NCBI GenBank assembly: GCA_017484085.1 | Contig: JAFUTW010000024.1 | Coordinates: 1-64,000 of the forward strand | Origin: Clostridia bacterium | Lineage (GTDB): Bacteria > Bacillota > Clostridia > Christensenellales > Aristaeellaceae | Direction of reading: 5' to 3' | Length of the DNA stretch: 64,000 bases | Shown: positions 1,079 through 42,062 of the stretch, piece by piece | How positions within the stretch are numbered: position 1 is the first letter of the stretch | Layout of the letters: every line of letters starts with the position of its first letter | Notes under the pieces: generated by a model | The model's input: the letters and a program-made list of their open reading frames with translations, nothing else | Database searches by the model: none | Told to the model about the DNA's origin: nothing | Translations under genes and position numbers: made by a program

Positions 1079-1306
1079 TTACTCGTCCTGAAGCCGCTTC
1101 ACCATCGCTTCCATGGCAGCGACGCTGTTAAAGTTGGCCGGAATGATTTCGGTCGCGGGGATGGAGATGTCGAATTCATCGTTCAGGGCGCCGATCAGCT
1201 GGATGATGTCCAGAGAGGAGAGGATGCCGCCGTCGATGAGCGTCTCGCAGTTTGCGTCCACGTCGTCACGGATGTCGGTCAGCAGTTCGATAATCGTTTC
1301 TTGCAT
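1079..1306 (-). CDS. Acyl/aminoacyl carrier protein (DltC-like)
   Basis: A 75-residue acidic carrier protein. The motif GGILSSLDIIQLI has the phosphopantetheine attachment serine at residue 31, where DltC and other carriers have a D/S-S-L triad. The length and the GGILSSLD context look more like DltC than like a fatty-acid AcpP. It is the last gene of the operon, 18 bases after the decarboxylase, with a good AAGGAG site. I infer that it carries the amino acid activated by the ligase at 2508-4040 as a thioester. It would be either the substrate of the decarboxylase or simply the donor for the MBOAT protein. Confidence 0.85.
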   Translation of the reverse strand: MQETIIELLTDIRDDVDANCETLIDGGILSSLDIIQLIGALNDEFDISIPATEIIPANFNSVAAMEAMVKRLQDE

Positions 1307-1324
1307 GGGTATCGCTCCTTATCT

Positions 1325-2515
1325 TTAACACTTTGTTTGTTGGGGACAATTGAATTGCCACGCGGGGAGCGTATCCCGCACGGGCAGGGCAGTGCCGCCT
1401 CGCAGAAGGATGACCTTCGGGAGATCGCGGCTGAGGAAGAGCACGGGCGCTTCGGTTACGGAATACGCGCCGCAATTGTGGAAGGCCAGCAGGTCTCCCG
1501 GATTGAGACTGCGCAGGGCGATGCTGCGGACGAGGACGTCCGCCGTCGTGCAGAGGCTGCCGCAAAGCATCCAGCTTTCATCCGCGGCATCTTCCGGCAC
1601 AGGCTGCACTGGCAGATGGTCGATGTGCGGCACGCGCATGCCCATGCTTCCGCCGTAATAATTGACGTGGTGCATGCCGCCGTCGAGAATGGCGATATTC
1701 GTGCCCTTGCACACCTTTGTATCACAGACGCGGGTGACGTATGTCCCGCAGGGGGAAGCGAAAAAGCGGCCCATTTCAACGGTCAGACGGCAATGCTCTG
1801 CCAGCTCCTGAAGATCGGGCGCGAGCTCCCGCAGAGGAGACAGGGTGTCGCTGTCGTCTTCGCCTTCAAAATAGGGGAAGTAGAGCCCGGCGCCATACTC
1901 GATCTCCTGCGTCTTAAAGCCGTAATCCGCCTCCAGCGAGTCGATCAGCGCGCGGAGCATCGCCAGTTCTTTGCGCTGTCCGTTCAGCCGCTTCTGCTGC
2001 GTGCCGGAGAAGTAATGGATGCCACGGATGGAAAGCCCGGGGGTCTCGTCTCGGTGTTGGATGGCGTACCGGAGATCTGATTCGTCCATGCCGAACTGGC
2101 TGCCTGCCGTCAGACGGAGGAGCACAGGCAGCGCGAGACCGCGCTGCAGCGCCGCTTCGTTCAGGAGCCGGATATGAAGGGGAGATTCACAGGTGAAGTG
2201 ACGCACTCCCAGATCCAGCGCACGTTCGATATCCCCGGCTGTCTTGTTGACGCCGGAGAAGAGGACGGCCTCGGGCGCGACGCCCAGGGCATGGCAGATC
2301 TCCAGCTCACCCGGGCTGCAGACTTCCAGCGTGCCGACGACGCCGGTCATCGCCGGGATGAGAAAGGGATTGGCCTTGATGGAATAGCACAGGCGCACGC
2401 TAGGGCCGACGATGCCAAGACAGTCGTGCATGCGGGACTGCACACAGTCCTCATCAAATACATAAAAGGGCGTGCCGCAGGTTTCGGCCAGGCTGCGGAG
2501 AAGCTCGTTATCCAT
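1325..2515 (-). CDS. PLP-dependent fold-III amino acid decarboxylase, possibly acting on a carrier-bound amino acid
   Basis: A 396-residue member of the Orn/Lys/Arg/DAP decarboxylase group (alanine-racemase fold). The PLP lysine is K47 in CYSIKANPF. GIHYFSGTQ (about 165-173) and EMGR (247-250) are the glycine/histidine and phosphate-binding motifs. GSLCTTAD (319-326) supplies the active-site Cys322 and Asp326 from the partner subunit. The start overlaps the ligase gene by 8 bases, indicating translational coupling. Known relatives include diaminopimelate decarboxylase and BtrK of butirosin synthesis, which decarboxylates a glutamyl residue bound to a carrier protein. Its position between an adenylating ligase and a carrier protein favours a BtrK-like role, but this is inference. 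A free-amino-acid decarboxylase is the main alternative. Confidence 0.8.
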   Translation of the reverse strand: MDNELLRSLAETCGTPFYVFDEDCVQSRMHDCLGIVGPSVRLCYSIKANPFLIPAMTGVVGTLEVCSPGELEICHALGVAPEAVLFSGVNKTAGDIERALDLGVRHFTCESPLHIRLLNEAALQRGLALPVLLRLTAGSQFGMDESDLRYAIQHRDETPGLSIRGIHYFSGTQQKRLNGQRKELAMLRALIDSLEADYGFKTQEIEYGAGLYFPYFEGEDDSDTLSPLRELAPDLQELAEHCRLTVEMGRFFASPCGTYVTRVCDTKVCKGTNIAILDGGMHHVNYYGGSMGMRVPHIDHLPVQPVPEDAADESWMLCGSLCTTADVLVRSIALRSLNPGDLLAFHNCGAYSVTEAPVLFLSRDLPKVILLRGGTALPVRDTLPAWQFNCPQQTKC

Positions 2516-4040
2516 GGTTTGCCGCCTTTCGGTTTTCGTAGAGCGCCAGCAAAGCGGCGCGGTCGATCTTTCCGTTTTTGGTCAGGGGCATCTGATCGAC
2601 GGGGAAGAAGACGTTGGGGATCATGTATTCCGGCAGATCGACGCGCAGCGCCGCGATGATCTCCTCACGGGTGGCAGCGCCGCAGATGAACGCGAGGATG
2701 CGGCCTTTCTTCTCGAGATAATGACAGAGCGCGCGCTCGACGCCCGGGACGGCGTTCAGCCGGACTTCGATCTCACCCAGCTCGATACGGTGGCCCATGT
2801 GCTTGATCTGAAAGTCCTTGCGGGAGACGTAGAGCCATTCTCCGTTTTCCGAAATGCGGATGAGGTCGCCTGTGTGGTAGATCCGGTCATGGACGGACGG
2901 ATTCAGCGGGTTTTCGGTGAAGACGGCGAGCGTCCTCTCCGGGTCGCGCCAGTAGCCGCGCGCGACGGATGTGCCTGCGACGCACAGCTCACCGGTCTGC
3001 CCCGGCTCCGTGACTTCTTTGTCCGCTTCATCCAGCAGGAAGACGCGCTCGTTGCGGAAGGGGATGCCGATGGGGATGATCTCGCCGTCCTGGAATTCAC
3101 GGTCCAGGACGTAGTAGGTGCAGTTGCAGGTGATCTCCGTAGGCCCGTAGAGATTGACGTAAACGGTATCCGGGAGATATTTCTGCAGCTTGCGCAGATG
3201 CTTGGGCGGCATGACCTCGCCGGAGAACATGATGAGCCGCAGCGCGGGGACCTTGTAGGCCAGCGCGTTCATCGTCGTCAGGAAGCAGAGCGCGCTGACG
3301 GCCCAGATGAGCACGTTGACCCTGCGATCGCACAGGTAGTCCATCAGAACGACGGGCTGCGTAAAGTAGGGCGTCGGGATGATCTCTACACTGGCGCCGG
3401 TAAAAAGGCCGCTGTAGATGTCTTTGACGGACACATCAAAATCAAAGGGTGCCTGATTGCCGATGACGTCATTCTCCCCGATGCCGAAGGTTTCCGTAAA
3501 GACGGGGATGAAATCCAGCACGTTGCGGTGGCAGACGACGACGCCCTTGGGCGTTCCGGTCGAGCCGGAGGTAAAGTTGACATACAGGGGATCCGTATCG
3601 ATCATGCGGGAACGGACGCCGGAAAGCCTCTCCTTGTCGCAGGGCGCCTCAAGAAGCTCTTCGAGAAGGAGGACCTTTCCTGCATAGCCGCAGGCGGCCA
3701 GCTGTGCTTTGTGTTCCCTGTCGGTGACGGCAACGGGGCTGCCCAGCGTCTCAAGGATAGCGGCAATGCGCGGCGCGGGGTGGCGCAGGTTCAGCTGCGC
3801 ATAGGCACAGCCGGCGTAGACAGCGCCGAAGAAACCGCAGAGCGCCGCACAGGATTTATCGAGATAGAAACCGACGACGCTGCCGGGCGCAACTTCGCAG
3901 CTGAGCGCGCTGCCGACCCTTCGCGCACGCCGCATGAATTCCGCAAAGGTCAGCGAGGTATCCGGATCGGCAAAAGCCTCTTTATCCGGAAGCCGCGCGG
4001 CGGTCTTCTCAAGGACATCCAGAACCAGATAATCTCTCAT
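2508..4040 (-). CDS. Amino acid adenylating ligase, DltA/NRPS A-domain type
   Basis: A 510-residue adenylate-forming enzyme that would activate an amino acid with ATP and load it on the carrier protein. Core motifs are in order: FTSGSTGTPKG (156-166), PFDFDVSVKD with the amine-binding Asp202, NLYGPTE (296-302), YHTGD (388-392), and NGKIDR with the catalytic Lys491. DltA normally has FCGE at the binding pocket, where the Cys favours D-alanine; here the motif is FSGEV with Ser273. This suggests, but does not prove, a substrate other than D-alanine. There is no fused condensation, carrier or thioesterase domain. It is followed by, and overlaps, the decarboxylase gene. Confidence 0.85.
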   Translation of the reverse strand: MRDYLVLDVLEKTAARLPDKEAFADPDTSLTFAEFMRRARRVGSALSCEVAPGSVVGFYLDKSCAALCGFFGAVYAGCAYAQLNLRHPAPRIAAILETLGSPVAVTDREHKAQLAACGYAGKVLLLEELLEAPCDKERLSGVRSRMIDTDPLYVNFTSGSTGTPKGVVVCHRNVLDFIPVFTETFGIGENDVIGNQAPFDFDVSVKDIYSGLFTGASVEIIPTPYFTQPVVLMDYLCDRRVNVLIWAVSALCFLTTMNALAYKVPALRLIMFSGEVMPPKHLRKLQKYLPDTVYVNLYGPTEITCNCTYYVLDREFQDGEIIPIGIPFRNERVFLLDEADKEVTEPGQTGELCVAGTSVARGYWRDPERTLAVFTENPLNPSVHDRIYHTGDLIRISENGEWLYVSRKDFQIKHMGHRIELGEIEVRLNAVPGVERALCHYLEKKGRILAFICGAATREEIIAALRVDLPEYMIPNVFFPVDQMPLTKNGKIDRAALLALYENRKAANHG

Positions 4041-4074
4041 GACGATACTCCTCTTTCAGCGCAGGATTGAAGGC

Positions 4075-5421
4075 TCAGTAAAGGTCCGCGTGTTCCAGCG
4101 CGTAGTCATAATCCGCCGGGTACCGGAAAAAGACGGGATCCTGCTCCGGATGCTCGGCAAGCCTCGCCTCAAGCAGCAGGTTTTCTCCTTCTTCCAGATC
4201 GGCCCGGATGGTCTTTTCACCGGACCAGTCGCTAAGGAGCGTCTTTGTGCCGTCCGGCGCGACGCGCGTGAAGCGGTATTCAGGCGTCACCATGCTGCCT
4301 GTGTTGCAGCCGACGGTGAAGACGCCGTCCTCGCCCGGATGGACCCAGGCGTTGGTGATCCAGGTGATGCTTTCGCGGTACTGCCAGGTCTTTTCATAAA
4401 ACCAGCCGCTGACGTCCTCCCCGGTGCAGACGGCGTTCAGCAGGCGGCAGAAGGCGGCGGTCTCCAGATCGGCGCCCTCGCCTGTCATATGGTACAGATC
4501 ATAGAAGAAACTGTCAAGGTTCGGCAGGAATTCTTCCTTCGCGAAATAGAGGTTGTAGCATTCGATGCCGTTGTCCCTGCAGAAATCCATCAGGTGCTGC
4601 ATATAGCGCAGATAATCCGGCTCTGCCAGGGCATGCGTCGTATGGTTATCGGAAATGATGACCATAAAGCGGGTGCCGTGCGCCTCGACGCTGTCGCGGT
4701 AAGCGAGCAGCATCTCCTTGGACTCCGGCAGCAGCGGAAAATCATATCCCTCATCCCGCTCCGCGATCATCTGCTGCCGGATGACGTCCGAAAGATCGCT
4801 GGTCTTCTCGTGCCTGAGAAAGCCGCGGCCCATATAACGCACATCTTCAAGCCCTTTCTGGATCTCTGCGAAGGTGCCGGCCGGATCGATGTGCATCCGG
4901 ACGGTTTTAAGAAAAGCGGAAAGCGACCGCGCCGGAAAGTCCCGGAAGATGAGCGCCCTGTCCACCCAGTAGCCGTCGATCTTCGCGTTGGCAGCATAGT
5001 AGCGCACGCGTGTACCGAGGCCGGTCAGCCAGGGCATCAGCTTGTAGGAGGGTTCGGGGTCTTCCCGTGCGGTGTTGAAGTTGTAGGGCTCCAGGACCAG
5101 GCAGAGGAGTTCCGGCGTGTTTTTCTTGTACAACTCCTCCGTGATGGCAGCGAAGGTCTGAAAACCGGCGCCGGGCGCGGTTACGGAAAAGGAGGAGAGG
5201 CCGGTTTCCCTCGTGATCATGTCCTCGTTGAAGTGATCCCGGACGACCGAGGAGCCGACGATAGCGAGCTGTATGTCATCCGCCTGCTGCATCTCGCGGA
5301 TGGTGAGCGCGGCGACGGAATCGGTATCCACCAGAAAGAAGTCGGCAGCGATGAGCACGAGGAGAAAGACGGCTGCAAACCCGAGAAGGCGCAGCCCTTT
5401 AACCAGAAGGGATTTGTTCAC
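4075..5421 (-). CDS. Membrane-anchored SGNH/DltD-like protein, second copy
   Basis: A 448-residue protein with one N-terminal membrane anchor (about residues 10-31) and a large extracytoplasmic domain. IVGSSVVRDH gives a GxS-type nucleophile at Ser58, and DLYH gives Asp308 and His311, the spacing of the SGNH-hydrolase DxxH block. It is a paralogue of the next protein upstream in the operon: both share GSSV-RDH, TEELY-N-PE, EPY-F-T-RE, MPWL and GEGADL. The start is GTG after a GGAGG site. By analogy with DltD, AlgJ/AlgX or PatB it would work with the MBOAT protein in transferring or removing an acyl group on a surface polymer. Confidence 0.65.
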   Translation of the reverse strand: MNKSLLVKGLRLLGFAAVFLLVLIAADFFLVDTDSVAALTIREMQQADDIQLAIVGSSVVRDHFNEDMITRETGLSSFSVTAPGAGFQTFAAITEELYKKNTPELLCLVLEPYNFNTAREDPEPSYKLMPWLTGLGTRVRYYAANAKIDGYWVDRALIFRDFPARSLSAFLKTVRMHIDPAGTFAEIQKGLEDVRYMGRGFLRHEKTSDLSDVIRQQMIAERDEGYDFPLLPESKEMLLAYRDSVEAHGTRFMVIISDNHTTHALAEPDYLRYMQHLMDFCRDNGIECYNLYFAKEEFLPNLDSFFYDLYHMTGEGADLETAAFCRLLNAVCTGEDVSGWFYEKTWQYRESITWITNAWVHPGEDGVFTVGCNTGSMVTPEYRFTRVAPDGTKTLLSDWSGEKTIRADLEEGENLLLEARLAEHPEQDPVFFRYPADYDYALEHADLY

Positions 5422-5459
5422 AGAAAGCCTCCGTACAGCAAAGGTGCGTTAAGCCGGCA

Positions 5460-6857
5460 TCAGTATTCCGGGCTGGTTCTGAAATCATAATAGACGGCGG
5501 ATTGCTGCCCCGTAAGGCGCGCGTATACGCGCAGGACACGGTGATCCAGGTCTCCGGCGCCGCAGCGGAGGATCCCCTCCTGCTGCCAGGGGGTCAGGGG
5601 CACTTCCATTTCGCCATCCAACAGGAAGAAACGGTATTCGGGCGTATAGAAGGGCGAGTGGTTGCAGTTGGCCAGATAGAGATCCATCTCCCCGTCCGCC
5701 AGAAAACGGACGGCGCCTTCATCCTGCTCGCGCGCCGGATCCCAGTCTTCCGCCGGATCATAGCGCTCCGCCCAGGCATTTGTGACGGTATCAAAGGCCT
5801 GCAGATACTCTTCATTCGAGCCGTAGAAAAGCGGCGTCGTATCCTCGCCCGCATCGCGCAGGTTCAGCCACCTGGCGACGGCGGAGGAGAAGAGATCGGC
5901 GCCTTCGCCGTTTACGTGATAAATATCGAAATAGTATGGATCGAGGTTCGGCAGCAGCTCCGGCTTGGCCAAAGCAAAATTGACGCATTCGATGCCGTTG
6001 TTGCGGCAGAAGAAGGTGAGGCTCCGGTTGTAGCCGAGGAAGGAAGGCTCGGCCAGGTTATGCGCGTTCATGTTCGGATAGATGAGCACGATGAGCTCTG
6101 TGCCGTGCGCGGCGAGCAGATCCCGGTACTCCAGCAGCATCTGTTTGGAGGCGGGCAGCAGGCCGTATTCCCAGCCCGTCACCTGCCGCTTCAGCTTTTC
6201 TTTGACAGCGTCGTCTGCGCGCAGATCGGTCTCGTAGCGGACAAAGCCCTGTTCCTGGTAGGTGACGGGGATATTGCCGTCTCTGGATTCATTGCCCAGC
6301 AGCTCTATCGTCCGGTGGGGGAAGAAGCGCAATCCGACGGTCTTGGCGATATCCAGCGGCGTCTGCGCACCCATATCGCGGAAGAGCAGGATGCGGTCCA
6401 TGTACCAGCCGTCAGCCGCGACCAGGCGCTTGTAATAATCCAGCTTTGTCCGGAAGGAAGAAAGCCAGGGCATCATCGTGTCCTCGGCTTCGATGCCCTC
6501 GCGTTCGGTTTCGAAGGTGTAAGGCTCCACCACCAGCACGATGGTTTCCGGGGCATTCGTACGGTACAGTTCCTCTGTCAGCGCGATGCTGCCCTGCATC
6601 GCAAGGCAGGGGATCGAGGCGTTGAAAGCGGTTTTGCCGGTCGCTTCGGAGATCAGCTGCGCGTTGACGTGGTCCCGGCAGACCGAGGAGCCGATGAAGA
6701 CGAGCTCCAGGTCGTCCCGCTCCTGCATCTCCAGCAGCATCCTGCGCGCAAAGAGATCCGTGCGCAGAAAGAAGACGTCGCCCAGGCAGATGACTGCTGC
6801 AAACACCATGAGGAATGCGGCCAGACGCAGGAGGCCGCGGAAGGCGGATTTGTTCAA
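5460..6857 (-). CDS. Membrane-anchored SGNH/DltD-like protein, first copy
   Basis: A 465-residue paralogue of the preceding entry. It has a membrane anchor at residues 10-31, FIGSSVCRDH with Ser58, and DIYH with Asp311 and His314. The start codon is TTG, supported by a GGGGAGG site 6 bases upstream. The predicted catalytic residues are intact in both copies, so neither looks degenerate; they may act as a pair or on different acceptors. It begins 17 bases after the MBOAT gene ends, in the same operon. Confidence 0.65.
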   Translation of the reverse strand: MNKSAFRGLLRLAAFLMVFAAVICLGDVFFLRTDLFARRMLLEMQERDDLELVFIGSSVCRDHVNAQLISEATGKTAFNASIPCLAMQGSIALTEELYRTNAPETIVLVVEPYTFETEREGIEAEDTMMPWLSSFRTKLDYYKRLVAADGWYMDRILLFRDMGAQTPLDIAKTVGLRFFPHRTIELLGNESRDGNIPVTYQEQGFVRYETDLRADDAVKEKLKRQVTGWEYGLLPASKQMLLEYRDLLAAHGTELIVLIYPNMNAHNLAEPSFLGYNRSLTFFCRNNGIECVNFALAKPELLPNLDPYYFDIYHVNGEGADLFSSAVARWLNLRDAGEDTTPLFYGSNEEYLQAFDTVTNAWAERYDPAEDWDPAREQDEGAVRFLADGEMDLYLANCNHSPFYTPEYRFFLLDGEMEVPLTPWQQEGILRCGAGDLDHRVLRVYARLTGQQSAVYYDFRTSPEY

Positions 6858-6874
6858 GGAATCCTCCCCGGCCG

Positions 6875-8431
6875 TCAGAATACGGCGTACATGAACCCGG
6901 AACTCTGCGTGCCCTCACCTACGAAGGTTGCAACGACAAAGTAGAGGAAGCAGATGAGAATGAGCCAGCGCAGCGGAAGCTTGCGCCCCAGGACGAAGCT
7001 GCGCACATCCGTGCCGCGCTCGCCCATCACGGAGACGATAAACAGCAGGAGGGTCGCGATGCCGAGGATGCGCCAGTCATAGCTGTGCAGGCCGAGGGAG
7101 AGGAGCGTCCCGTCCGAGAGCTGGACAAGGCCGGGCTGAAAGAAGGTTTTGCCCAGCATGAGGAAGGCCTCGGCGCCCCGCGTGCAGCGGTCGAAATACC
7201 AGCCGATGTTGACGATGAGGAACGTGCGCAGGATGCGGAAAAGGGCAAATCCGCGGGAAGCCGACAGCGCGGCATGCTGCTCGCCGAAATGTTTGTATGC
7301 GGGCTCCAGCAGGGCGGAGATGGCAAGGATGATGCCGTTGTAGAGGCCCCAGAGCACATAGTTGATCTGGGCGCCGTGCCAGATGCCGACCAGGAAGAAG
7401 ACGAGAATGTTGCCGAGCGCCGCAGGCAGTGCCCGCGCCATATGGGCGTTGCCGCTTTTGCGGACTGCGCGGCCGAGGGCGGACATCGGGCGGGAGAGCG
7501 CAAAAGGATAGAAGACGTAGTCGCGCATCCAGCTGCCGAGGCTGATGTGCCAGCGGCGCCAGAAGTCTCCCAGACTGGAGGCAAAATACGGGCGGCGGAA
7601 ATTCGGGGCGAGACGGATGCCGAAGAGCTCCGCGATGCCCGTCACGAGATCGATGCCGCCGGAGAAATCGCAGTACTGCTGCAGGGAATAGAGGAGCACC
7701 GCGACGGCGATGACGGCCCCGCCGTAAGCATGATGGTTTCCGAAGACCTCGGAGACAAAGGGCAGCGCCCTGTCGGCGATGACCTTCTTTTTGAAAAAGC
7801 CCCAGGCCATGAGCAGCAGTCCGCGCTCGACGGCATCCAGATCGAATTCATGGGGCTCGGTCAGCTGTGCGGCCAGCTGATCGTGCCGTGCAATGGGGCC
7901 CTGGATCAGCTGCGGGAAGAAGGAGACGAAGAGCAGAAAGCGGAGCGGATTGCGCTCCGGCGCGGTCTTTTCGTTGTACACATCCAGCAGATAGCCCATG
8001 GACTGGAAGGTGTAGAAGGAGATGCCCAGCGGCAGCAGGAGCCCCAGAGAACGGGAGGTCCAGACGGACAGAAGAGGATCCAGATATTTAAGCAGCGCGA
8101 GTATGCCGAAGTTGAGGACGAGGCAGCAGAGCATGACAAGACGCCGGCGGGCCTTGCTGCGGGCTTTCGCGGCCTTCTTTTCTTCGGCGGACAGCTCCCC
8201 GCGGTGCTCCTTGAGCCACGCCCGGTGTGCCTCGGACAGCTTTCCGAGGTAAAGAGCGGAGGCCCAGGTCGAAAAGGAAGTGAGCAGGATAAAGGGAACG
8301 CCGCGCAGCCCCGCGTAGGCATAGATGAGGAGGCTCGCTGCGAGCAGCAGCAGCCAGCGCATGCGCGCGGGGCACAGGTAATAAAGCAGCGCGCACAGGA
8401 GAGAGGCGGCGATCAGCAGGGAAAGCGACAT
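6875..8431 (-). CDS. MBOAT family membrane O-acyltransferase (DltB/AlgI-like)
   Basis: A 518-residue polytopic membrane protein and first gene of the operon. Signature segments are LGDFWRRWHISLGSWMRDY with His295 and FLVGIWHGAQINYVLWG with His352, the two conserved MBOAT histidines (H289 and H336 in the DltB structure). The PNFRRPYFASSLGDFW context is typical of the AlgI/DltB branch. A charged loop rich in Lys/Arg lies at about 75-97. It would take the carrier-bound acyl or aminoacyl group across the membrane and pass it to an extracellular acceptor with the two SGNH proteins. Confidence 0.85.
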   Translation of the reverse strand: MSLSLLIAASLLCALLYYLCPARMRWLLLLAASLLIYAYAGLRGVPFILLTSFSTWASALYLGKLSEAHRAWLKEHRGELSAEEKKAAKARSKARRRLVMLCCLVLNFGILALLKYLDPLLSVWTSRSLGLLLPLGISFYTFQSMGYLLDVYNEKTAPERNPLRFLLFVSFFPQLIQGPIARHDQLAAQLTEPHEFDLDAVERGLLLMAWGFFKKKVIADRALPFVSEVFGNHHAYGGAVIAVAVLLYSLQQYCDFSGGIDLVTGIAELFGIRLAPNFRRPYFASSLGDFWRRWHISLGSWMRDYVFYPFALSRPMSALGRAVRKSGNAHMARALPAALGNILVFFLVGIWHGAQINYVLWGLYNGIILAISALLEPAYKHFGEQHAALSASRGFALFRILRTFLIVNIGWYFDRCTRGAEAFLMLGKTFFQPGLVQLSDGTLLSLGLHSYDWRILGIATLLLFIVSVMGERGTDVRSFVLGRKLPLRWLILICFLYFVVATFVGEGTQSSGFMYAVF

Positions 8432-8496: not shown

Positions 8497-8505
8497 ATTA
8501 TACCA
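8497..8505 (-). promoter_or_regulatory. Extended -10 promoter of the MBOAT/ligase/decarboxylase operon
   Basis: On the minus strand TGG-TATAAT, a consensus -10 with the TGn extension, lies 66 bases before the MBOAT start. No good -35 is seen, which is acceptable for an extended -10 promoter. Confidence 0.6.
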
Positions 8506-8586
8506 TGAAAACGGGATTTCTGCATTACTTTCTGCAGGATCGCTGCGTGCAGGCCGTGGGGCAGGGCGGAATCCTTCGCAAGACAA

Positions 8587-8615
8587 TTGAGTTTCCGGGA
8601 AAGGGGATGTATAAT
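8587..8615 (+). promoter_or_regulatory. Promoter of cdd
   Basis: TTGAGT, a 17-base spacer and a consensus TATAAT at 8610-8615, about 30 bases before the cytidine deaminase start. Confidence 0.7.
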
Positions 8616-8645
8616 GAAGAGGCAATTCAGCACCGGAGGGAAACG

Positions 8646-9056
8646 ATGTCAGAAACGAGAGAATTGATCCGGGCGGCTTTGGAAGCCCGTGAAATGGCCT
8701 ATACGCCGTATTCCCATTTCAAGGTGGGCGCGGCGCTGCTGGCGAAGGACGGCACCGTCTGGCGGGGCTGCAATATCGAAAACGCGGCGTACACGCCGAC
8801 CAACTGTGCGGAGCGCACGGCCTTCTTCAAGGCGGTCAGCGAGGGCTGCAGAGAGTTTTCGGCCATTGCAGTCGTGGGCGGCCGGGAAGGCCCCGTCACG
8901 GAGGAGTGCGCGCCCTGCGGCGTCTGCCGGCAGGTGATGGCGGAGTTCTGCGATCCCGATGACTTCCGGGTCATCCTGGCGGCGGATGAAGAGCACTACT
9001 CGGTGTACAGGCTTCGCGAGCTTCTGCCGCAGGCTTTTGTCCCTTCGCGCCTCTGA
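8646..9056 (+). CDS. cdd: Cytidine deaminase
   Basis: A 136-residue homotetrameric-type cytidine deaminase that converts (deoxy)cytidine to (deoxy)uridine in pyrimidine salvage. NCAERTA holds the first zinc cysteine and the catalytic Glu, and PCGVCRQ holds the other two cysteines. FKVGAALLAKDG and GCNIENAAYTPTNCAER are family landmarks. The ATG at 8646 was chosen because a GGAGGG site lies just upstream and the product then has the usual length; the reading frame stays open further upstream without homology. Confidence 0.93.
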   Translation: MSETRELIRAALEAREMAYTPYSHFKVGAALLAKDGTVWRGCNIENAAYTPTNCAERTAFFKAVSEGCREFSAIAVVGGREGPVTEECAPCGVCRQVMAEFCDPDDFRVILAADEEHYSVYRLRELLPQAFVPSRL

Positions 9057-9096: not shown

Positions 9097-10053
9097 ATGA
9101 CGCTGCTGGAGTACCGCGTATTTGACACCGTTACGCAACAGGGAAGCTTTGCGGGAGCGGCGCAGGCGCTGCATCTTACCCCCAGCGCGGTCAGCCATGC
9201 CATCGGGGCCATGGAGGAAGCGTGCGGCTTTCAGCTTTTCGTCCGCGGGAGAGGCGGCGTCAGCCTCACGCATGTGGGAGAGACGCTGTACCCGCTGATC
9301 CGCCAGGTCCTGTCGGCGGATGAGAGCATCACGCGCGCCGTGGATGAGATCAAGGGTGTCCAGCGCGGGAAGGTGCGCATCGGGGCCTTCAACAGCGTGT
9401 GCGTCTCCTGGCTGCCGCAGATCGCGGAGGACTACCGAAGACGGTATCCGGGCGTGGATATTGAGATCCACCAGGGCACCTACAGCGACGTCATCGAGTG
9501 GATCAAGAGCGGCGTGGTCGACCTGGGTTTCCTCTCCACGCAGTACACGAGGGAGCTGACGATCCATCCCCTCTACAGGGACCGCCTGATGTGCGTGACG
9601 CCGGGGACGTATCAGCCGCGCAATCCGGGCTACATCACGCCGGAGGAACTGCGCAACGAGACGTTTGTCGTGCAGGGTTCTTCGGTGGATGCCGATATCC
9701 AGGCTTTTCTGGCCAAATACCAGATCAGCGCCCACGCTTCCTGCCTGGTGACGGATGACCTTTCCACCTTCGCCATGGTGGAAAGCGGCTTCGGCGTGTG
9801 CATCATGCCCAGCCTGGTGCTGGAGGGCTATCGGGGAGGGGCCAAGGTGCTGCCCATCGAGCCCATGGAATACCGGGAGTTCGGCGTGGCCCTGCCGCGC
9901 ACGCAGACGATGGCGCCCGCCGTGGCGGAGATGCTGGAAACGATTGAACGATTTGCCGCAGAGCAGCGCCGGGGCGCTGCCATCGGAGGCGTGCTGCCGC
10001 CGGATGCGGAAGAACAGGAACGGGCTAAGGGCCCGGAGGAGGATTTATGCTGA
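9097..10053 (+). CDS. LysR-family transcriptional regulator
   Basis: A 318-residue protein with an N-terminal winged helix (residues 1-60; FDTVTQQGSFAGAAQALHLT is the recognition segment) and a periplasmic-binding-protein-like effector domain (about 88-295). Its stop overlaps the start of the Lrp-type gene by 7 bases, so the two regulators and the aminotransferase form one translationally coupled unit. The effector is unknown; amino-acid or keto-acid sensing would suit the context. Confidence 0.88.
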   Translation: MTLLEYRVFDTVTQQGSFAGAAQALHLTPSAVSHAIGAMEEACGFQLFVRGRGGVSLTHVGETLYPLIRQVLSADESITRAVDEIKGVQRGKVRIGAFNSVCVSWLPQIAEDYRRRYPGVDIEIHQGTYSDVIEWIKSGVVDLGFLSTQYTRELTIHPLYRDRLMCVTPGTYQPRNPGYITPEELRNETFVVQGSSVDADIQAFLAKYQISAHASCLVTDDLSTFAMVESGFGVCIMPSLVLEGYRGGAKVLPIEPMEYREFGVALPRTQTMAPAVAEMLETIERFAAEQRRGAAIGGVLPPDAEEQERAKGPEEDLC

Positions 10054-11861: not shown

Positions 11862-14084
11862 ATGAAGAAGCTTGCCCTGATCCTGACGCTGGTGCTGGCG
11901 CTTGCAGCGCTGACCGCCTGCGGAAACGATGCCAAACAGACGCCTGCAGCGGCGACGTCAGCACCGACGGCCGAGCCTACAGCGGAACCGACGGCCGAGC
12001 CTACAGCGGAACCGACGGCCGAGCCTACAGCGGAGCCGACCGCAGAACCGACGACGGAGCCGACCGCAGAACCGACGGCCGAGCCCACAGCGGAACCGAC
12101 GGCTGAGCCTACAGCAGAACCGGTTGCGGAGGATTCTGCCAATCCCGTGCTGGCCGCGACGAAGGACGGCGCCATCAGCGTGACCAAGGAAGACCTGCAG
12201 GCTGACTATGATGAGATGCTTGCTTATTATCTCACCCAGTACAGCCAGATGGGCTACACGGTGGATGAGTATGACGCGGAATTCCAGCAGAGCGTGGCGA
12301 CCTATACCGCACAGTCTGTCATGAGCCGCAAGGTCGTGGAAAAATGGGCGGCCGACAACGGCTATACGCTGACCGACGAGCGCGAGGCGGAGCTGAAGAA
12401 GGAAGCTGAAGATGCCGTCACGCAGGCGCGTGAATACATGAGCAGCATGTTCAGCACGTATTACGGGCTCAGCGGTGAGGAACTGGAAACCACCGTGGAG
12501 CAGTATATGCAGGAGAGCGGCTACAACGCGGATGCGTATCTGGACAGCGCGCGCTTCAACGACCTGCTGGATTTCGTGCATGCCACGGCCGTGAAGGACG
12601 TGACGGTGACCGAAGAAGAGGTCAAGGCCGCTTTTGAAGAGAAGATCGCAAGCGCGAAAGAAAGCTACGCGACCGTCGATAATTACCTGAACGCCGTGCA
12701 GAACGGCGAGGACGTGGTCTACGTTCCCGAGGGAGTCCGCCGCGTCCAGGTCGTCTATGTGACGAAGCCGGAAGAAGCCGAAGAAGAGGCGACCCCTTCG
12801 GAGGCGACAGCTGACGAAGCGACGCCTGCCGAGGCAACTCCGGCCGAAGCGCAGCAGGAGCCGGCCGGTGCCGCAAAGGCCGAGGCTGCGCGCGCCGCGC
12901 TGCTCGAGGGCCACGACTTTGCCGAGGTGGCTGCCGCTTACGATGAGAGCGGCGCACAGGCGTCCGATATTGAGAAGGGGATCCTGGTGGCAGAAGGCAG
13001 CCAGCTCTATACCGAAGAACTGGTGAAGGCCGCGATGGGCCTTGAAAAGCCGGGCGATGTCTCCGATGTCGTGGAGACGGCGGGCGCGCTGTTCGTCGTG
13101 CGCTATCTGGAAGACGTTGCCTCCGGCGAGGCGGACTTTGAGAGCCGCAAGGAGACGGAGACCGCTTCGTTCCGGGAGACCAAGGAGCAGGAGGCCTACA
13201 GCGCCTTCGTCTCCGGCATCGTGGAGGACGCAGGGATCGAGTATAAGGATCTCACGCCGCTCTACCATGTGTATGCGGGTGAGGAGATCGTGGCGAAGAC
13301 CGCCTATGCGACTGTAAGCAAAGATGCTTCTCTGCTTTCGCTGCCGGGCGGCGATGCGGTTGCCGCGCTGAAAGCGGGGGCCAGCCTGGATATCCTGGGC
13401 CACGTCGTGGTGGACGGAACGGACTGGGCTTTTGTGGCGGTGCCCGGCACGGAGTTCAAGGGCTATCTGACGGTCGGTGAGTATGCGGGCGCGGAGGAAG
13501 AGGCGGCGCTGGCGGTAGACAATACCGCCCTGGCGGAAGCTGCGCAGGCGGCTGCGGAGGCGAAGCCCGTCTTCTCTATCGTGATGAATGACGGCGCCGT
13601 CATCTACGGTGAGCTGTATCCCGAAACGGCGCCCGAGTCCGTTGGCAACTTCGCAGAGCTTGCCCGCAGCGGTTTCTACGACGGGCTGACCTTCCACCGC
13701 GTCATCGCCGGATTCATGATCCAGGGCGGTGATCCGGCGGGCAACGGCACAGGCGGACCCGGCTACGGCATCAAGGGTGAGTTCTCGGCCAACGGCGTCG
13801 AGAACGGCGTCAGCCACAAGCGCGGCGTACTGTCCATGGCGCGCTCGACCGATATGGATTCCGCGGGCAGCCAGTTCTTCATCATGCATGCGGACGGCGA
13901 TTTCCTCGACGGTCAGTATGCAGCCTTCGGCATGGTGCTTGGCGGCCTGGATGAAGTCGACGTGATCGCTTCCGTGCCGACCGACTCCAATGACAAGCCG
14001 CGCACGGAGCAGGTGATCCGAACCGTGTGGGTGGAGACGAACGGCAAGGAGTACACCTTTACCAAGCTGAACAGCGTGGACTGA
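11862..14084 (+). CDS. Lipoprotein foldase with parvulin-like and cyclophilin domains
   Basis: A 740-residue exported lipoprotein. Residues 1-20 are a signal peptide with lipobox LTAC (Cys20). Residues 35-87 are a TAEP repeat linker. Residues about 95-450 resemble a SurA/PrsA-type chaperone arm with a PpiC-like parvulin segment interrupted by a second low-complexity ATPxEA stretch. Residues about 468-545 look like an SH3-type module. Residues about 568-735 are a full cyclophilin domain (GFYDGLTFHRVIAGFMIQGG, GSQFFIMHADGDFLDGQYAAFG). It should assist folding of proteins after export. Cyclophilin assignment is firm; the parvulin part is divergent and may not be catalytic. Confidence 0.85.
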   Translation: MKKLALILTLVLALAALTACGNDAKQTPAAATSAPTAEPTAEPTAEPTAEPTAEPTAEPTAEPTTEPTAEPTAEPTAEPTAEPTAEPVAEDSANPVLAATKDGAISVTKEDLQADYDEMLAYYLTQYSQMGYTVDEYDAEFQQSVATYTAQSVMSRKVVEKWAADNGYTLTDEREAELKKEAEDAVTQAREYMSSMFSTYYGLSGEELETTVEQYMQESGYNADAYLDSARFNDLLDFVHATAVKDVTVTEEEVKAAFEEKIASAKESYATVDNYLNAVQNGEDVVYVPEGVRRVQVVYVTKPEEAEEEATPSEATADEATPAEATPAEAQQEPAGAAKAEAARAALLEGHDFAEVAAAYDESGAQASDIEKGILVAEGSQLYTEELVKAAMGLEKPGDVSDVVETAGALFVVRYLEDVASGEADFESRKETETASFRETKEQEAYSAFVSGIVEDAGIEYKDLTPLYHVYAGEEIVAKTAYATVSKDASLLSLPGGDAVAALKAGASLDILGHVVVDGTDWAFVAVPGTEFKGYLTVGEYAGAEEEAALAVDNTALAEAAQAAAEAKPVFSIVMNDGAVIYGELYPETAPESVGNFAELARSGFYDGLTFHRVIAGFMIQGGDPAGNGTGGPGYGIKGEFSANGVENGVSHKRGVLSMARSTDMDSAGSQFFIMHADGDFLDGQYAAFGMVLGGLDEVDVIASVPTDSNDKPRTEQVIRTVWVETNGKEYTFTKLNSVD
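11964..12123 (+). repeat. In-frame TAEP tandem repeat
   Basis: About 13 copies of a 12-base unit encoding Thr-Ala-Glu-Pro, with variants such as TTEP. It forms an extended, acidic, proline-rich spacer just after the lipid anchor. The repeat could change length by slippage. Confidence 0.9.
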
Positions 14085-37192: not shown

Positions 37193-38824
<1,632 letters not shown>

Positions 38825-38922
38825 TCGAGGCCGCAAAGCCTTGATATAGCTGGATTTTAGCACAATCGGGAAAGGCATTTACGCCACGTTTACGCCAAAT
38901 TCAGCGCCGAATGGATAGCAAG

Positions 38923-38963
38923 AAATGGGCAGCCGGTACTGCATGTACTGACTGCCCATTTTT
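38923..38963 (+). terminator. Rho-independent terminator downstream of groEL
   Basis: AAATGGGCAG and CTGCCCATTTTT form a stem ending in a T run. It is about 100 bases after the groEL stop and may end the groESL transcript. Confidence 0.6.
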
Positions 38964-39165
38964 CTACGCCATTTGCTCTTTACAATCTTCGGACAAAAAA
39001 CCGCCTCCCATGAGATGGATATACGCACCACATAGGGCGGGTTGCCATCCGGGAAACGGCAGAAAACTGTCCCCCAAGTAATATAATAAGAAATTATATA
39101 AAAACAAGAAGAAAAAGCGTTTCCTTTGATTTGGTCAGCTAAGAGAGGACTGTTCACATGAGGAA

Positions 39166-39191
39166 GGGGCTGCGGAACAAACCGCAGCCCC
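39166..39191 (-). other. Perfect hairpin after the 113-residue gene
   Basis: GGGGCTGCGG, AACAAA loop, CCGCAGCCCC. It lies just downstream of the minus-strand gene ending at 39207. No long T run on that strand. Confidence 0.6.
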
Positions 39192-39206
39192 AAATCGGTA
39201 AAAACG

Positions 39207-39548
39207 TTATTCCTGTTGCTCTGCTTCACTATCCAGGTTGATGCGAATATCATTTTGTATGAGATATTTCCCGTTGTTTTTTGCATAGAGCATTGCCAAA
39301 GCGTGATCAACCAAAGATTTTAATTTGGTATCATCGGCAATATCTGTACTGCCTACAAAGCGAAATTCATGCTTATTGTCGATGAAGAACGTATCATAGT
39401 AATCACTCAGTGCCATAAAGGCATCTGTGAGCTGCTGATCGTCGTCCCATTCGGGCGGATTATCGTTGTCGATGATCTCACCGTCTTCATCATACAGCCA
39501 AATGGGGTAAGTGTTGTACTCTAAGAGCAAGCGAATTTTACTAATCAT
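39207..39548 (-). CDS. Small acidic protein, candidate immunity protein
   Basis: A 113-residue, strongly acidic protein (DEDGEIIDNDNPPEWDDDQ near residues 20-38) without signal peptide or membrane segment. I do not recognise the family. Its size, acidity and position in a row of toxin/immunity-type cassettes suggest an immunity protein, but this rests on context only. Confidence 0.5.
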   Translation of the reverse strand: MISKIRLLLEYNTYPIWLYDEDGEIIDNDNPPEWDDDQQLTDAFMALSDYYDTFFIDNKHEFRFVGSTDIADDTKLKSLVDHALAMLYAKNNGKYLIQNDIRINLDSEAEQQE

Positions 39549-39616
39549 ATCCTACTGCATTACGCTCCTTTTCCATATGATTACTGTAAACCGTGCGATT
39601 CCAGTTATTTCCGATT

Positions 39617-39641
39617 GACAGCGCGAGAGATTCGCGCTATC
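39617..39641. other. Hairpin upstream of the small acidic protein gene
   Basis: AGCGCGA and TCGCGCT arms flanked by GAC and ATC. It could be an operator or a transcript hairpin. Confidence 0.4.
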
Positions 39642-39650
39642 ATATAAGCA

Positions 39651-39730
39651 CTTATTTGGAGGATACTCGTATCCCTCAGAATGAGCCCGCCGGGTGTTGG
39701 TAGCGCCCGGCGGGCCCTTTTTTTGCTTAT
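39651..39730. repeat. Cassette-separating repeat, copy 1, with GTTGGTAGC-loop hairpin
   Basis: It begins CTTATTTGGAGGATACTCG (shared with copy 3), continues GTATCCCTCAGAATG, then a 10-bp hairpin GCCCGCCGGG/CCCGGCGGGC (39685-39715) with loop TGTTGGTAGCG, a T run and GCTTAT. From 39665 it is nearly identical to copy 2 over 65 bases. It overlaps the end of the next gene by 4 bases. Confidence 0.8.
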
Positions 39731-40173
39731 GAGCGCTTGTCCTGTTGATAGCGTTTGCGGAACTCGTTTAGGCACAAATCGTTTGAGCTGCCTGCCCAGC
39801 GATCTGGCTCATCTTCCATAAGGCCATCATCCAGCCACCCACAGACCGGGCTAATATCGAAGCTGTCCCGATCTTTGAACGTATGTTTCCCGCATACAGG
39901 GCATTGATGAGGCTCTATAGGGGGGCAATGCTCGTCTGAAAAATCGTATTCTGGATTTTCTGCGATTACTTCCTCATACCACGCCCGGTACTCGTTGACG
40001 CTTTGAACGTTTTTGCCCTGCTTGAGATCCGGATTGGCAGCTTGATTGTAATCGTAGCGCCACCCGCATTTAGAGCATTGAAGAAGGCCTACATTGTCAC
40101 CCTCCTGCAACTCAGAGAAGTAAAACTTGCCGCAAACCGGACATACCATTGGCTGACACACACTGTTTTTCAT
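39727..40173 (-). CDS. Cysteine-rich CPCC-type protein, candidate immunity protein
   Basis: A 148-residue protein with two zinc-ribbon halves. The N-terminal half has VCPVCGKF and QCSKCGW. The C-terminal half, HQCPVCGKHTF...SPVCGWLDDG...LNEFRKRY, matches the CPCC cysteine-rich domain, found among immunity proteins of polymorphic toxin systems. The ATG at 40173 fits the start of homology; a longer frame reaches 40428 but crosses a repeat copy. Confidence 0.65.
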   Translation of the reverse strand: MKNSVCQPMVCPVCGKFYFSELQEGDNVGLLQCSKCGWRYDYNQAANPDLKQGKNVQSVNEYRAWYEEVIAENPEYDFSDEHCPPIEPHQCPVCGKHTFKDRDSFDISPVCGWLDDGLMEDEPDRWAGSSNDLCLNEFRKRYQQDKRS

Positions 40174-40188
40174 TTCCTTGACCCCTCT

Positions 40189-40253
40189 ACTCGTATCCCT
40201 CAGAATGAGCCCGCCGGGTGTTGGTAGCGCCCGGCAGGCTCTTTTTTGCTTAT
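40189..40253. repeat. Cassette-separating repeat, copy 2, with GTTGGTAGC-loop hairpin
   Basis: Near-identical to 39665-39730. The hairpin stem GAGCC-GCCGGG / CCCGGC-GGCTC differs at two positions from copy 1, while the loop TGTTGGTAGCG is unchanged. It ends in a T run and GCTTAT, overlapping the stop of the next gene by 4 bases, exactly as in copy 1. Confidence 0.8.
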
Positions 40254-40783
40254 TCCTCAGCAGATGGAGACCATGAGTCCTCCAACTCATAGGAGAATAG
40301 CACCTTCGTTGTGGCCTTGTCCACTGCATGGACGATTTTCTCATCCAACGACAGATAGTACTGGACATTGTCATGCCGCTGCAAATAGTCGGAAAGCCGG
40401 ATGTCCCCGTCTGCCTCTGTTGCATCATATACTTCTGTATCTGTCATGAAGTATATCTGCTTCCAACCTTCAAGGCTTTCGGGTACAGCAACATCTGAAC
40501 GTTGGTAAATCCGCAACCAGCGTCCACCAGGGATGTACTGTACTTCATACACCCTTTTGCATACGGGACAGAACCAATAATCTACGGGTTCCGGCCTGTC
40601 CATGTAATCTCTTTGACATTCGTTCTTTTCGTCCCACCCAAGCAAGAAATCGTGAAGAGTAACCTCCGGATTATCTTTAATCGCATTGTCGGCTTCATTT
40701 TTGTAATAGACATACACAATGTACGGAGACGGATCATCTGATGATCCCATACTTGCTCCGCACTTACATCCCAATCGTGACAT
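40250..40783 (-). CDS. Uncharacterised zinc-ribbon protein
   Basis: A 177-residue protein. GCKCGAS at residues 5-11 and WFCPVCKRVYEV at about 70-81 supply four cysteines of a possible zinc ribbon; the rest is acidic. GGAGG lies 8 bases before the ATG at 40783. No known family is recognised. It sits 14 bases after the nuclease-like gene, so it may be that protein's immunity partner. Confidence 0.6.
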   Translation of the reverse strand: MSRLGCKCGASMGSSDDPSPYIVYVYYKNEADNAIKDNPEVTLHDFLLGWDEKNECQRDYMDRPEPVDYWFCPVCKRVYEVQYIPGGRWLRIYQRSDVAVPESLEGWKQIYFMTDTEVYDATEADGDIRLSDYLQRHDNVQYYLSLDEKIVHAVDKATTKVLFSYELEDSWSPSAEE

Positions 40784-40797
40784 GCTTATTCCTCCAT

Positions 40798-41238
40798 TCA
40801 ATATGAGAGTTTAGTTCTATCAGCAAACCAGACCTCGATTGGCCCTTTGATGAGCCCTTTTCGCCTTGCTTCTGCAATGCCAGCTTCTGCAAACTTACGC
40901 CCCGTTTCACTATTTCTGTGATTAGGGAGATAGATCGCAATCGTGTCTCCGGCGTGTATCTGCTCATTAGCCTTTTGAATATTTGTGGCGATTTTGCTTG
41001 AATTTGGACTCGTGACCCTCTTAACTTCGATGTTTTTAATAAAGTTATCATCGTTACTTGATTTAATTGTTAAATCGTAAGTATGGTCTGGAGCGTGGGT
41101 CTGGCGAAAAACAGCTTCAAAACCTTGGTCGATATAGCGCTCTGCTACAAAAATTGCGCCTTTATCCGTGACTTTATGGCCGCCGGAGTCCTTATAGCTC
41201 GGCTGTTTTTCGGTATAACCGCCTCTGCCTCTGCCCAT
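40798..41238 (-). CDS. Orphan toxin-like nuclease domain (CdiA C-terminal type)
   Basis: A 146-residue protein resembling the tRNA-nuclease domains found at the C terminus of CdiA-type toxins. GAIFVAERYIDQGFEAVF is followed by a PD-(D/E)xK-like core: Asp55 in HTYDLTI, then Glu71 and Lys73 in NIEVKRV. The end reads GPIEVWFADRT. There is no secretion or repeat region, so it is a free-standing domain. The ATG at 41238 sits at the end of the DUF4417 gene; a longer frame overlaps that gene and is rejected. Confidence 0.6.
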   Translation of the reverse strand: MGRGRGGYTEKQPSYKDSGGHKVTDKGAIFVAERYIDQGFEAVFRQTHAPDHTYDLTIKSSNDDNFIKNIEVKRVTSPNSSKIATNIQKANEQIHAGDTIAIYLPNHRNSETGRKFAEAGIAEARRKGLIKGPIEVWFADRTKLSY

Positions 41239-41239
41239 A

Positions 41240-41887
41240 TCACGCACCCCATCTTTCTTGCGAAAACGTGTTACAGACGACGATAGGCATCGGGAAGCGT
41301 TCCCGCCAAGCATCGGGGAACTTGCCGTAGACGACGAGCTTTTCCGGGTGCTTTTGACGAGCCAGCTCGTGCAGACCGTTCAAAAGGGACTGCTTGGAAA
41401 CGTAATCGTGGCCCATGCACCCTTGCGTCGTGATGGAAAGCACGCTGTATGCCGGAAGCCCATCAAAGGCCCATTCAAGACTCTCTGCATCGCTCCATCC
41501 TGCGTTGGGGATGATGGTTAGACCGTTCCGCTGCATATAATAGGCCGTTGCCCGGTTGCGCCAACAGTTCCATATCTGTTGGCTGCGGGGCATGTCCAGA
41601 TAAATGCTGTAGTCGGTACTGATCCCACCGGCAAAGCGCCGCAAAACCGATAAGTACTGCGCGGGGCGGTTCCATAGCCGTTCAAACTGGTAGTCGTCCT
41701 CGTAGAAATGAAACCACCGCTGTTCGGGATTCTTGGCCGTCTTAGCCATGTGGAACGGCACGAGATTTTCCGGCTCAACGTCATGAACCGGCTGGAGCTT
41801 GGGCATATCGTATTTTCCCTCAAGCTCCGCATCCTTGATTCGTTCCCAGCGGAACGTGTCAAGGTCATTCAGTTTATCAAATTTCAT
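41240..41887 (-). CDS. DUF4417 protein
   Basis: A 215-residue protein matching DUF4417, a family common in phages and mobile elements of Firmicutes. Typical segments are FHFYEDDYQFERLWNRP and SIYLDMPRSQQIWNCWRNR, followed by GLTIIPNAGWSDAES. Its function is unknown. A GGAG site precedes the ATG. It is coupled to the toxin-like gene, whose start lies 2 bases before this stop ends. Confidence 0.75.
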   Translation of the reverse strand: MKFDKLNDLDTFRWERIKDAELEGKYDMPKLQPVHDVEPENLVPFHMAKTAKNPEQRWFHFYEDDYQFERLWNRPAQYLSVLRRFAGGISTDYSIYLDMPRSQQIWNCWRNRATAYYMQRNGLTIIPNAGWSDAESLEWAFDGLPAYSVLSITTQGCMGHDYVSKQSLLNGLHELARQKHPEKLVVYGKFPDAWRERFPMPIVVCNTFSQERWGA

Positions 41888-41942
41888 TTTGTCTTCTCCA
41901 TATCCTAAGATTTTTGTATCTGAGGATACGAGAGCCGATTTA

Positions 41943-42017
41943 CTTATTTGGAGGACACTCGTATCCCCAGAATGGGTTTATGGTGCAGCATACCGTTGGT
42001 AGCAGCCATGCTGCGCC
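41943..42017. repeat. Repeat copy 3 with a different stem and the same loop
   Basis: CTTATTTGGAGGACACTCGTATCCC-CAGAATG matches copy 1 (39651-39682) with one substitution and a one-base indel. The hairpin that follows, GGTGCAGCAT/ATGCTGCGCC (41982-42017), is unrelated in stem sequence but carries GTTGGTAGC in its loop. Confidence 0.7.
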
Positions 42018-42029
42018 GCCTGCATCTAT

Positions 42030-42062
42030 GCCGGTATAAAAGTTGGTAGCAGATATACCGGC
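42030..42062. repeat. Fourth GTTGGTAGC-loop hairpin
   Basis: GCCGGTATA and TATACCGGC form a perfect 9-bp stem around AAAGTTGGTAGCAGA. The stem again differs from the other three, and the loop core is identical. Confidence 0.7.

Follow-up and report, generated by a model that had tools for sequence, protein, structure and literature searches.

Gram-positive bacteria use D-alanylation to adjust their surface charge and how well they resist cationic peptides. The Dlt system combines a carrier protein with a separate shuttle, DltX, and its DltB has no fused shuttle motif; other MBOAT-SGNH systems use acyl-CoA without a carrier and have a fused shuttle (PMC12148441). Amino acids can also be decarboxylated on a carrier. 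The pyridoxal phosphate (PLP) enzyme BtrK acts on the glutamyl-carrier and converts glutamate to gamma-aminobutyric acid (GABA) in place (PMC7857480), and VinO acts on a 3-methylaspartyl-carrier, thioester formation being needed first (PMC11284099). Here we describe a six-gene cassette in a 64,000-nt stretch of a Clostridia bacterium (GenBank assembly GCA_017484085.1, contig JAFUTW010000024.1, positions 1 to 64,000; this whole stretch is the window, and coordinates are window positions unless a locus is named). The cassette would link two chemistries, the decarboxylation of carrier-bound substrates by PLP enzymes, as in antibiotic synthesis, and envelope acylation by an MBOAT-SGNH pair. It recurs in many anaerobic bacteria, those of the gut among them, and is apparently an undescribed relative of the cell-wall D-alanylation pathway; no description of it was found in the literature, judged by titles and abstract openings, with bioRxiv and most subscription papers outside the coverage. 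We consider it rather probable that it is a dedicated surface-aminoacylation cassette, in which glutamate or aspartate would be loaded through the side chain and would lose a carboxyl group while on the carrier; the resulting GABA- or beta-alanyl group would then be passed to a surface acceptor.

A conserved six-gene cassette

The six open reading frames (ORFs) all lie on the minus strand, from 8431 to 1079, in the order MBOAT acyltransferase (6875..8431, 518 aa), SGNH/DltD-like protein 1 (5460..6857, 465 aa, TTG start), SGNH/DltD-like protein 2 (4075..5421, 448 aa, GTG start), stand-alone adenylation ligase (2508..4040, 510 aa), BtrK-like fold-III PLP decarboxylase (1325..2515, 396 aa) and carrier protein (1079..1306, 75 aa). 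All were present, in one direction, where an initial annotation of the window had placed them, and the overlap of the ligase and decarboxylase genes that it described was confirmed, ligase stop and decarboxylase start sharing 8 nt (ATGGATAA, 2508..2515, minus strand). Four of the six proteins matched Pfam domains over cut-off: MBOAT (PF03062), AMP-binding, the fold-III decarboxylase domains and PP-binding (PF00550, the carrier). The likely pantetheine site of the carrier, Ser31 (codon 1214-1216), was kept in 91 of 91 aligned rows (89 distinct). The ligase and decarboxylase genes overlapped in 40 of 57 measurable loci, most commonly by 4 nt (20/57); each gene was measured from its earliest possible start codon, which makes 40 an upper limit.

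The first search set held 100 genomes, namely the own genome, 28 genus-mates, 31 family-mates of other genera and 40 order-mates (below, loci are labelled L and genomes G). Cassette-level orthologues of the decarboxylase were found in 25 of the 28 genus-mates (at least 57% identity), in none of the family-mates and in one order-mate (G068, 42%). In G014, one of the three genus-mates that were missed, the ligase match ends 134 nt from the contig end. The near loci numbered 27 (26 stretches from the 25 genus-mates, and L056). The ligase stood beside the decarboxylase in 27/27 and the carrier was present in 23/27, split into two pieces in L039 (3784-4026). A full in-line MBOAT gene was seen in 18/27; in L048 a fragment of the gene runs into the contig edge, and six others end at the contig. 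Two cassettes with three SGNH genes each (L037 and L049) were seen in G006.

A scan of the GTDB collection gave 437 relatives, of which the best 80 loci were kept, ranked by closeness and so biased to close ones. They comprise 57 from Bacillota, 22 from Actinomycetota and one unplaced, L065 being the same locus as L056. Cultured commensals that bear the cassette include Catenibacillus scindens (L084), Parvibacter caecicola (L117) and Anaerobium acetethylicum (L139). Among these best 80, the ligase lay within 400 nt of the decarboxylase in 77 by script and in L079 and L134 on reading by eye, where the decarboxylase ORF was over-extended (79/80 in total); the stretch of the remaining one, L140, starts 282 nt upstream, cut by the contig. 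The carrier was near in 75 (contig ends account for L066, L098 and L123), the MBOAT gene in 74, with five misses at contig ends, and an SGNH gene in 70 after profile iteration. The initial annotation had named confinement of the cluster to its own genome as a result that would refute it; what was found is recurrence across two phyla and in several gene orders.

Because the best 80 were ranked by closeness, an even draw over the class was used as a check. Among its 391 genomes, 20 matched the decarboxylase at E <= 1e-40, 14 at cassette level (own included) and six as BtrK-like proteins. The ligase was within 1.5 kb in 13/13 of the other cassette-level loci, the carrier lying in between in L154 and L156, and the carrier was present in 12/13, the exception (L146) being a contig end. 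With the same profiles, cassette partners were found in 0/6 of the BtrK-like loci. A draw over the phylum had the cassette in 4 of 398 genomes, own included. As controls, 20 loci with LysA-level proteins were picked by the analyst from the matches of the 100-genome search; a cassette partner was found in 0/20, and a laxer rescan gave one SGNH match (12.7 bits, L178). Ten of these controls were checked against NCBIfam: lysA was the best model for 10/10, with four over its cut-off and six at 277-289 of 297.9 bits.

We write gene orders with LIG for ligase, DEC for decarboxylase, ACP for carrier, MB for MBOAT and SG for SGNH. The order LIG-DEC-ACP-MB-SG was found in 61 of the 80 loci and LIG-DEC-SG-ACP-MB in three. 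MB-SG-LIG-DEC-ACP is the order of the window's genus, L137 and L198, and DEC-ACP-LIG-MB-SG that of L195 and L196, so that at least four orders were seen. Partners that stay together despite a changed order are hard to explain without shared function. By the synteny counts and the controls, the six-gene cluster is a real conserved unit and not a chance arrangement, and from their conserved company its genes act together. A complete cassette was also observed in a human faecal sequence deposited, unverified, as "Bacteriophage sp." (L192:9897-15270, MT836540.1), which is probably a mislabelled bacterial contig.

Decarboxylase, ligase and sister cassettes

Like BtrK, the window decarboxylase carries a Cys-Thr (CT) active-site motif, and BtrK ranked top in a search of the PDB (2j66/7ru7; 1.4e-37 and 1.6e-37), the best diaminopimelate decarboxylase (DAPDC) reaching 1.6e-28; the analogy drawn in the initial annotation was borne out by both. 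In the rows shown, G-x-L-C-T occurs in cassette and BtrK-like enzymes and C-E in LysA-level rows. Lys47 and Cys322 were kept in 84/84 decarboxylases and Thr323 in 75/84, with Ser in the other nine. With the NCBIfam lysA model the window enzyme scored 166.6 bits and did not reach the cut-off of 297.9, whereas the ten controls scored 277-468 bits; on this score and the CT instead of the CE motif, its identification as LysA was rejected. The genomes of 17 members of the genus encode a LysA-level protein in addition to the cassette enzyme.

The two BtrK-like proteins of the class draw that were searched against the PDB had BtrK as their best match by more than 40 orders of magnitude (9e-94 and 2e-99, versus 4e-52 and 1e-57 for DAPDC); the BtrK-like protein of L187 also scored 286.9 of 297.9 bits with lysA. 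Three of the six BtrK-like loci were read (L185, L187 and L190). In L187 and L190 the decarboxylase gene stands beside ATP-grasp-like genes with a carrier within 8 kb, a butirosin-like set, and no ATP-grasp gene was noticed on reading L185. In an unrooted tree of 43 proteins without outgroup, the 17 cassette, six BtrK-like and 20 LysA-level proteins each lay on one side of a branch (split 100/100), and by path length the BtrK-like proteins (stem 0.36) are nearer to the cassette enzymes than LysA (1.48). An earlier reading of this tree as showing BtrK kinship was withdrawn, the tree having three groups and no outgroup. Distant decarboxylases were also found in 126 plasmid records; in the three examined, a carrier lay within about 6 kb in 3/3 and an AMP ligase in 2/3. 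With these three relatives added to the tree, the cassette enzymes join them, apart from the BtrK-like and LysA rows (Shimodaira-Hasegawa-like approximate likelihood ratio, SH-aLRT, 93). This tree and the ligase tree below were quick searches with SH-aLRT only and midpoint roots.

The ligase had been annotated as DltA-like. It is nearer to the adenylation domains of non-ribosomal peptide synthetases (NRPS), passing TIGR01733 with 324.6 bits (cut-off 317.4), than to DltA, whose models gave 263-273 bits against cut-offs of 476-560 (263 of 559.85 for the DltA equivalog). Its pocket code reads DVKIMSLCNK in GrsA numbering, placed by GrsA motifs, and it differs at most positions from the presumed DltA code. 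Among 97 ligase rows (96 distinct, L065 being L056), D235, K239, S301, C330 and N331 were found in 97/97 and V236 in 95/97, and five further decarboxylase-bearing ligases agree at the conserved pocket positions. K239, a basic residue of the amino-acid pocket that does not vary, is Lys206 of the window ligase (codon 3423..3425, minus strand). In 21 sister ligases without a decarboxylase, V236, S301 and C330 were found in 0/21, N331 in 1/21 and K239 in 15/21. V236 and S301 resemble changes described for beta-amino acids: VinN has F and S at 236 and 301, and A236V in an engineered TycA favoured a beta-amino acid (PMC11253843). Activation of a side-chain carboxyl by an NRPS domain is known from ACV synthetase (PMC7147772). 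Activation of Glu or Asp at the side chain is moderately supported for the cassette ligase.

The sisters were found with a ligase profile, which matched 91 of the 391 class-draw genomes at E <= 1e-100; the cassette bearers are the 12 best of these and two lower ones (G443 and G477). A ligase match without a cassette decarboxylase was left in 77 genomes (91 minus 14), 20 of which were examined. All 20 loci had a carrier (at 21 bits in one of them), 19 had an MBOAT gene and 14 a clear SGNH gene, and no decarboxylase was found in any of the 20. A GNAT acyltransferase gene occupied the usual decarboxylase slot, between ligase and carrier, in 5/20 (L233, L243, L247, L248 and L249). Ten sister ligases share the code DAKCAGLGMK, and a racemase homologue lay near seven of them (L235, L236, L238-L242), directly upstream in six; the one tested matched PF01177, Asp/Glu racemase. 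With a racemase near seven of the ten, K239 seems to accompany an acidic substrate amino acid, and K239 together with this context indirectly supports an acidic substrate for the cassette ligase too. In the ligase tree one branch (SH-aLRT 98) sets off the 21 decarboxylase-bearing rows, and another (100) sets off the ten DAKCAGLGMK rows.

The GNAT gene in the slot and the racemase gene upstream support exchangeable tailoring. We hold with middling confidence that the cassette belongs to a modular envelope-aminoacylation class, in which ligase and carrier would supply the MBOAT protein with its fused shuttle and an exchangeable editor would act on the amino acid before export. If so, the editor present, be it BtrK-like decarboxylase, GNAT acyltransferase or Asp/Glu racemase, would decide what chemistry the surface group has, and the ligase pocket would be adapted to it. 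Judging from the sister cassettes, surface amino acids may form a wider set, unnamed by the family models used.

Acyl transfer and genome context

The MBOAT assignment of the initial annotation stood, with PF03062 over cut-off, and the protein is not DltB by the curated cut-off (TIGR04091, 164 of 375 bits). The aligned MBOAT rows number 92, or 91 distinct with L065 equal to L056, and the row from L046 is not adjacent to a cassette. His352 (codon 7376-7378 in the window) and the residue aligned with Tyr515 were kept in 92/92, and 90/92 end in Y-x-x-F. The window protein ends in FMYAVF (residues 513-518 with Tyr515; 6878..6895, minus strand), which is the strict FxYxxF acyl-shuttle motif (PMC12148441); the first residue of the motif is F in 23/92 and P in 68/92, and was unread in one. 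By these motifs, the cassette combines a carrier with a putative fused shuttle.

SGNH proteins 1 and 2 had no Pfam or NCBIfam match at E <= 0.001, and their identity rests on the residue pattern G-x-S...D-x-x-H. Across 51 aligned homologues, of which 50 come from cassettes and one from an orphan pair (L062), G-x-S and D-x-x-H were kept; G56, S58 and H311 were invariant and D308 was at least 90% conserved, giving Ser58, Asp308 and His311 in protein 2. The orphan pair is a second MBOAT-SGNH pair of the own genome (L062:7099-10171, contig C26), its MBOAT scoring 756 bits with the cassette MBOAT profile, and no ligase or carrier was found in the stretch read. On contig C47 of the same genome (L061:1985-5627), an AlgI-like MBOAT gene with a FLYFNF end stands between genes for two weakly SGNH-like proteins, with no ligase. 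With two further MBOAT-SGNH loci without ligase in the genome, one of them cassette-like, one carrier supply might serve two acceptors.

DltA over cut-off was found in 0/29 genus genomes and in 0/15 other cassette genomes (none from Actinomycetota), several of the genomes being incomplete; B. subtilis and L. lactis, as controls, pass the cut-off. The teichoic-like acceptor suggested in the initial annotation was not supported: the TagB/F-type family PF04464 was found in 9/29 genus genomes and not in the own genome, and canonical wall teichoic acid was rejected as the general acceptor in the genus. Of the 79 ligase-bearing loci, 71 have more than 1500 nt upstream, and in 20 of the 79 the next gene upstream, on the same strand, belongs to the histidine kinase cluster; Pfam, run on one example each, confirmed a histidine kinase and an OmpR-type regulator. 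ATP-binding cassette (ABC) transporter ATPase genes occur somewhere in 25/80 loci. A gene for a 4'-phosphopantetheinyl transferase adjoins the cassette in L133 (14880-15239), and the same neighbour cluster occurs in 4/80 loci.

The genes flanking the cassette in the window encode a nitroreductase-like protein (399-974), a cytidine deaminase (8505-9056) and a LysR protein (9097-10053). They were not counted in, because among the 27 near loci their order is shared only with the closest relative, L031. An ORF of 740 aa at 11862-14084 carries a PTAEPTAEP-type repeat and apparently, by eye, a foldase linked to a cyclophilin-like part. Between a chaperonin-like gene and a tRNA-Asn gene, G+C falls to 0.49-0.54 (38000-45400); this stretch, a possible island, contains an ORF that looks Fic-like by eye (42111-43202).

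Proposed pathway, alternatives and known systems

The pathway that we propose has four steps. The ligase would adenylate L-Glu or L-Asp through the side-chain carboxyl and load it on the carrier pantetheine, as its pocket and context suggest. The BtrK-like enzyme, to judge from its family, motif and gene coupling, would then remove the free alpha-carboxyl on the carrier, so that a gamma-aminobutyryl or beta-alanyl thioester remains. The MBOAT protein, if it works like PatA and Dlt, may take the aminoacyl group from the carrier onto its own shuttle Tyr515. Finally, the residue pattern of the SGNH proteins would fit a Ser that takes the group and esterifies an extracytoplasmic polymer, adding positive charge. 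We infer the substrate, the carrier-bound decarboxylation and an amine-bearing, cationic surface ester from sequence, and the interpretation in the initial annotation is, as a whole, partly supported.

Several observations weigh against this pathway. The shortened loop and K330/R331 of VinN are absent from the cassette ligase, which has C330 and N331 in every row, so side-chain loading stays tentative; at the VinN loop position an Agrobacterium plasmid ligase shows a gap and R in the alignment. The code DVKIMSLCNK matches none of the published Glu, Gln, Asp and Asn codes compared. Since most of the sisters without a decarboxylase have it, K239 does not mark decarboxylation and was rejected in that role. 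As for the decarboxylase, three groups and no outgroup mean that the split in the 43-protein tree cannot place the cassette enzymes with BtrK, and only path length does. The stem of the cassette group is long (2.61), and the five cassette rows shown lack some 15 residues ahead of the FG-D motif that BtrK-like and LysA rows have, so that the function may have shifted. Most shuttle motifs start with P for F (PxYxxF, 68/92). Partners are also absent from some loci that have room for them. Among the near loci, L043 and L046 have no adjacent MBOAT gene, and the related genus-mate loci L048, L050, L051 and L052 have no carrier despite 1.4-4 kb. Among the best 80, L083 has no carrier (1.5 kb left) and the carrier of L080 is on the other strand; the absence of MBOAT from L142 is real, and L105, L130 and L142 have no SGNH gene.

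The PLP enzyme might instead act first and make free GABA or beta-alanine, and the ligase would load the free omega-amino acid. V236 and S301 would be in keeping with a beta-amino acid (PMC11253843), and the overlap of the two genes does not tell the order of the reactions. We nevertheless regard this order as unlikely, as the invariant Lys239 of the pocket would have no carboxylate to bind, and BtrK (PMC7857480) and VinO (PMC11284099) both act on carrier-bound substrate. Were meso-diaminopimelate loaded and trimmed at its distal centre, the product would be a lysyl-carrier and the outcome surface lysylation. The fold-III family does include LysA, the window enzyme scores 166.6 bits with the NCBIfam lysA model, and the unrooted tree cannot by itself exclude LysA kinship; the missed lysA cut-off, which the controls reach or approach, the CT motif and the LysA-level protein kept by 17 genus genomes make this very improbable.

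Nearly as improbable, in our view, is a small secreted or lipid-linked metabolite as the product, with the MBOAT and SGNH proteins acting on it instead of a surface polymer. Among the known sets and those seen here, the closest ligase-carrier-decarboxylase combinations consist of natural-product genes, ABC-transporter ATPase genes occur in 25 of the 80 loci, and no acceptor gene is linked. On the other hand, an MBOAT with a C-terminal shuttle together with an SGNH protein is the pair that acylates envelope polymers (PMC12148441), a histidine kinase gene stands directly upstream in 20 of 79 ligase-bearing loci, and no NRPS or polyketide synthase was noticed in the 30 largest neighbour clusters (first 80 residues, mostly by eye, with no aimed search). 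Surface aminoacylation with a decarboxylated Glu or Asp would give Bacillota and Coriobacteriia-type Actinomycetota a carrier-based route by which another amine, produced by decarboxylation on the carrier, could reach the surface.

Butirosin synthesis uses an ATP-grasp ligase. BtrI, BtrJ and BtrK of that pathway provide the closest characterised decarboxylase, which turns a glutamyl-carrier into a GABA-carrier (PMC7857480), but they build an antibiotic side chain, whereas the cassette has an adenylation ligase and an MBOAT protein. VinN, VinL and VinO, and FlvN, which make macrolactam starters, are alike in having an adenylation enzyme, a stand-alone carrier and a PLP decarboxylase, with an Asp-type substrate loaded before decarboxylation (PMC11284099); they differ in feeding a polyketide synthase, and VinN in its loop and K330/R331. 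The exosortase-A-associated set resembles the cassette in that TIGR03099 is the best NCBIfam match of the decarboxylase (191.7 bits) and TIGR03098 matches the ligase (195.4 bits), but both scores are far under the cut-offs (478 and 592).

Like PatA/PatB and AlgI O-acetylation, the cassette has a fused C-terminal shuttle motif and a separate SGNH protein; those systems use acyl-CoA without a carrier (PMC12148441), whereas the cassette has a ligase and a carrier. Like Dlt (DltA, DltB, DltC, DltD and DltX), in which a ligase loads a carrier and MBOAT and SGNH proteins pass the aminoacyl group to an envelope polymer, it has all four of these components. Unlike Dlt, it adds a decarboxylase, its shuttle is fused to the MBOAT protein where Dlt has DltX, and its ligase, MBOAT and carrier fall below the Dlt cut-offs, the carrier scoring 31.7 of 68 and 21.3 of 52.35 bits with the DltC models. 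By the cut-offs tested the cassette is not a member of Dlt, and its sequences mark it as a putative new variant of Dlt/MBOAT-SGNH acylation.

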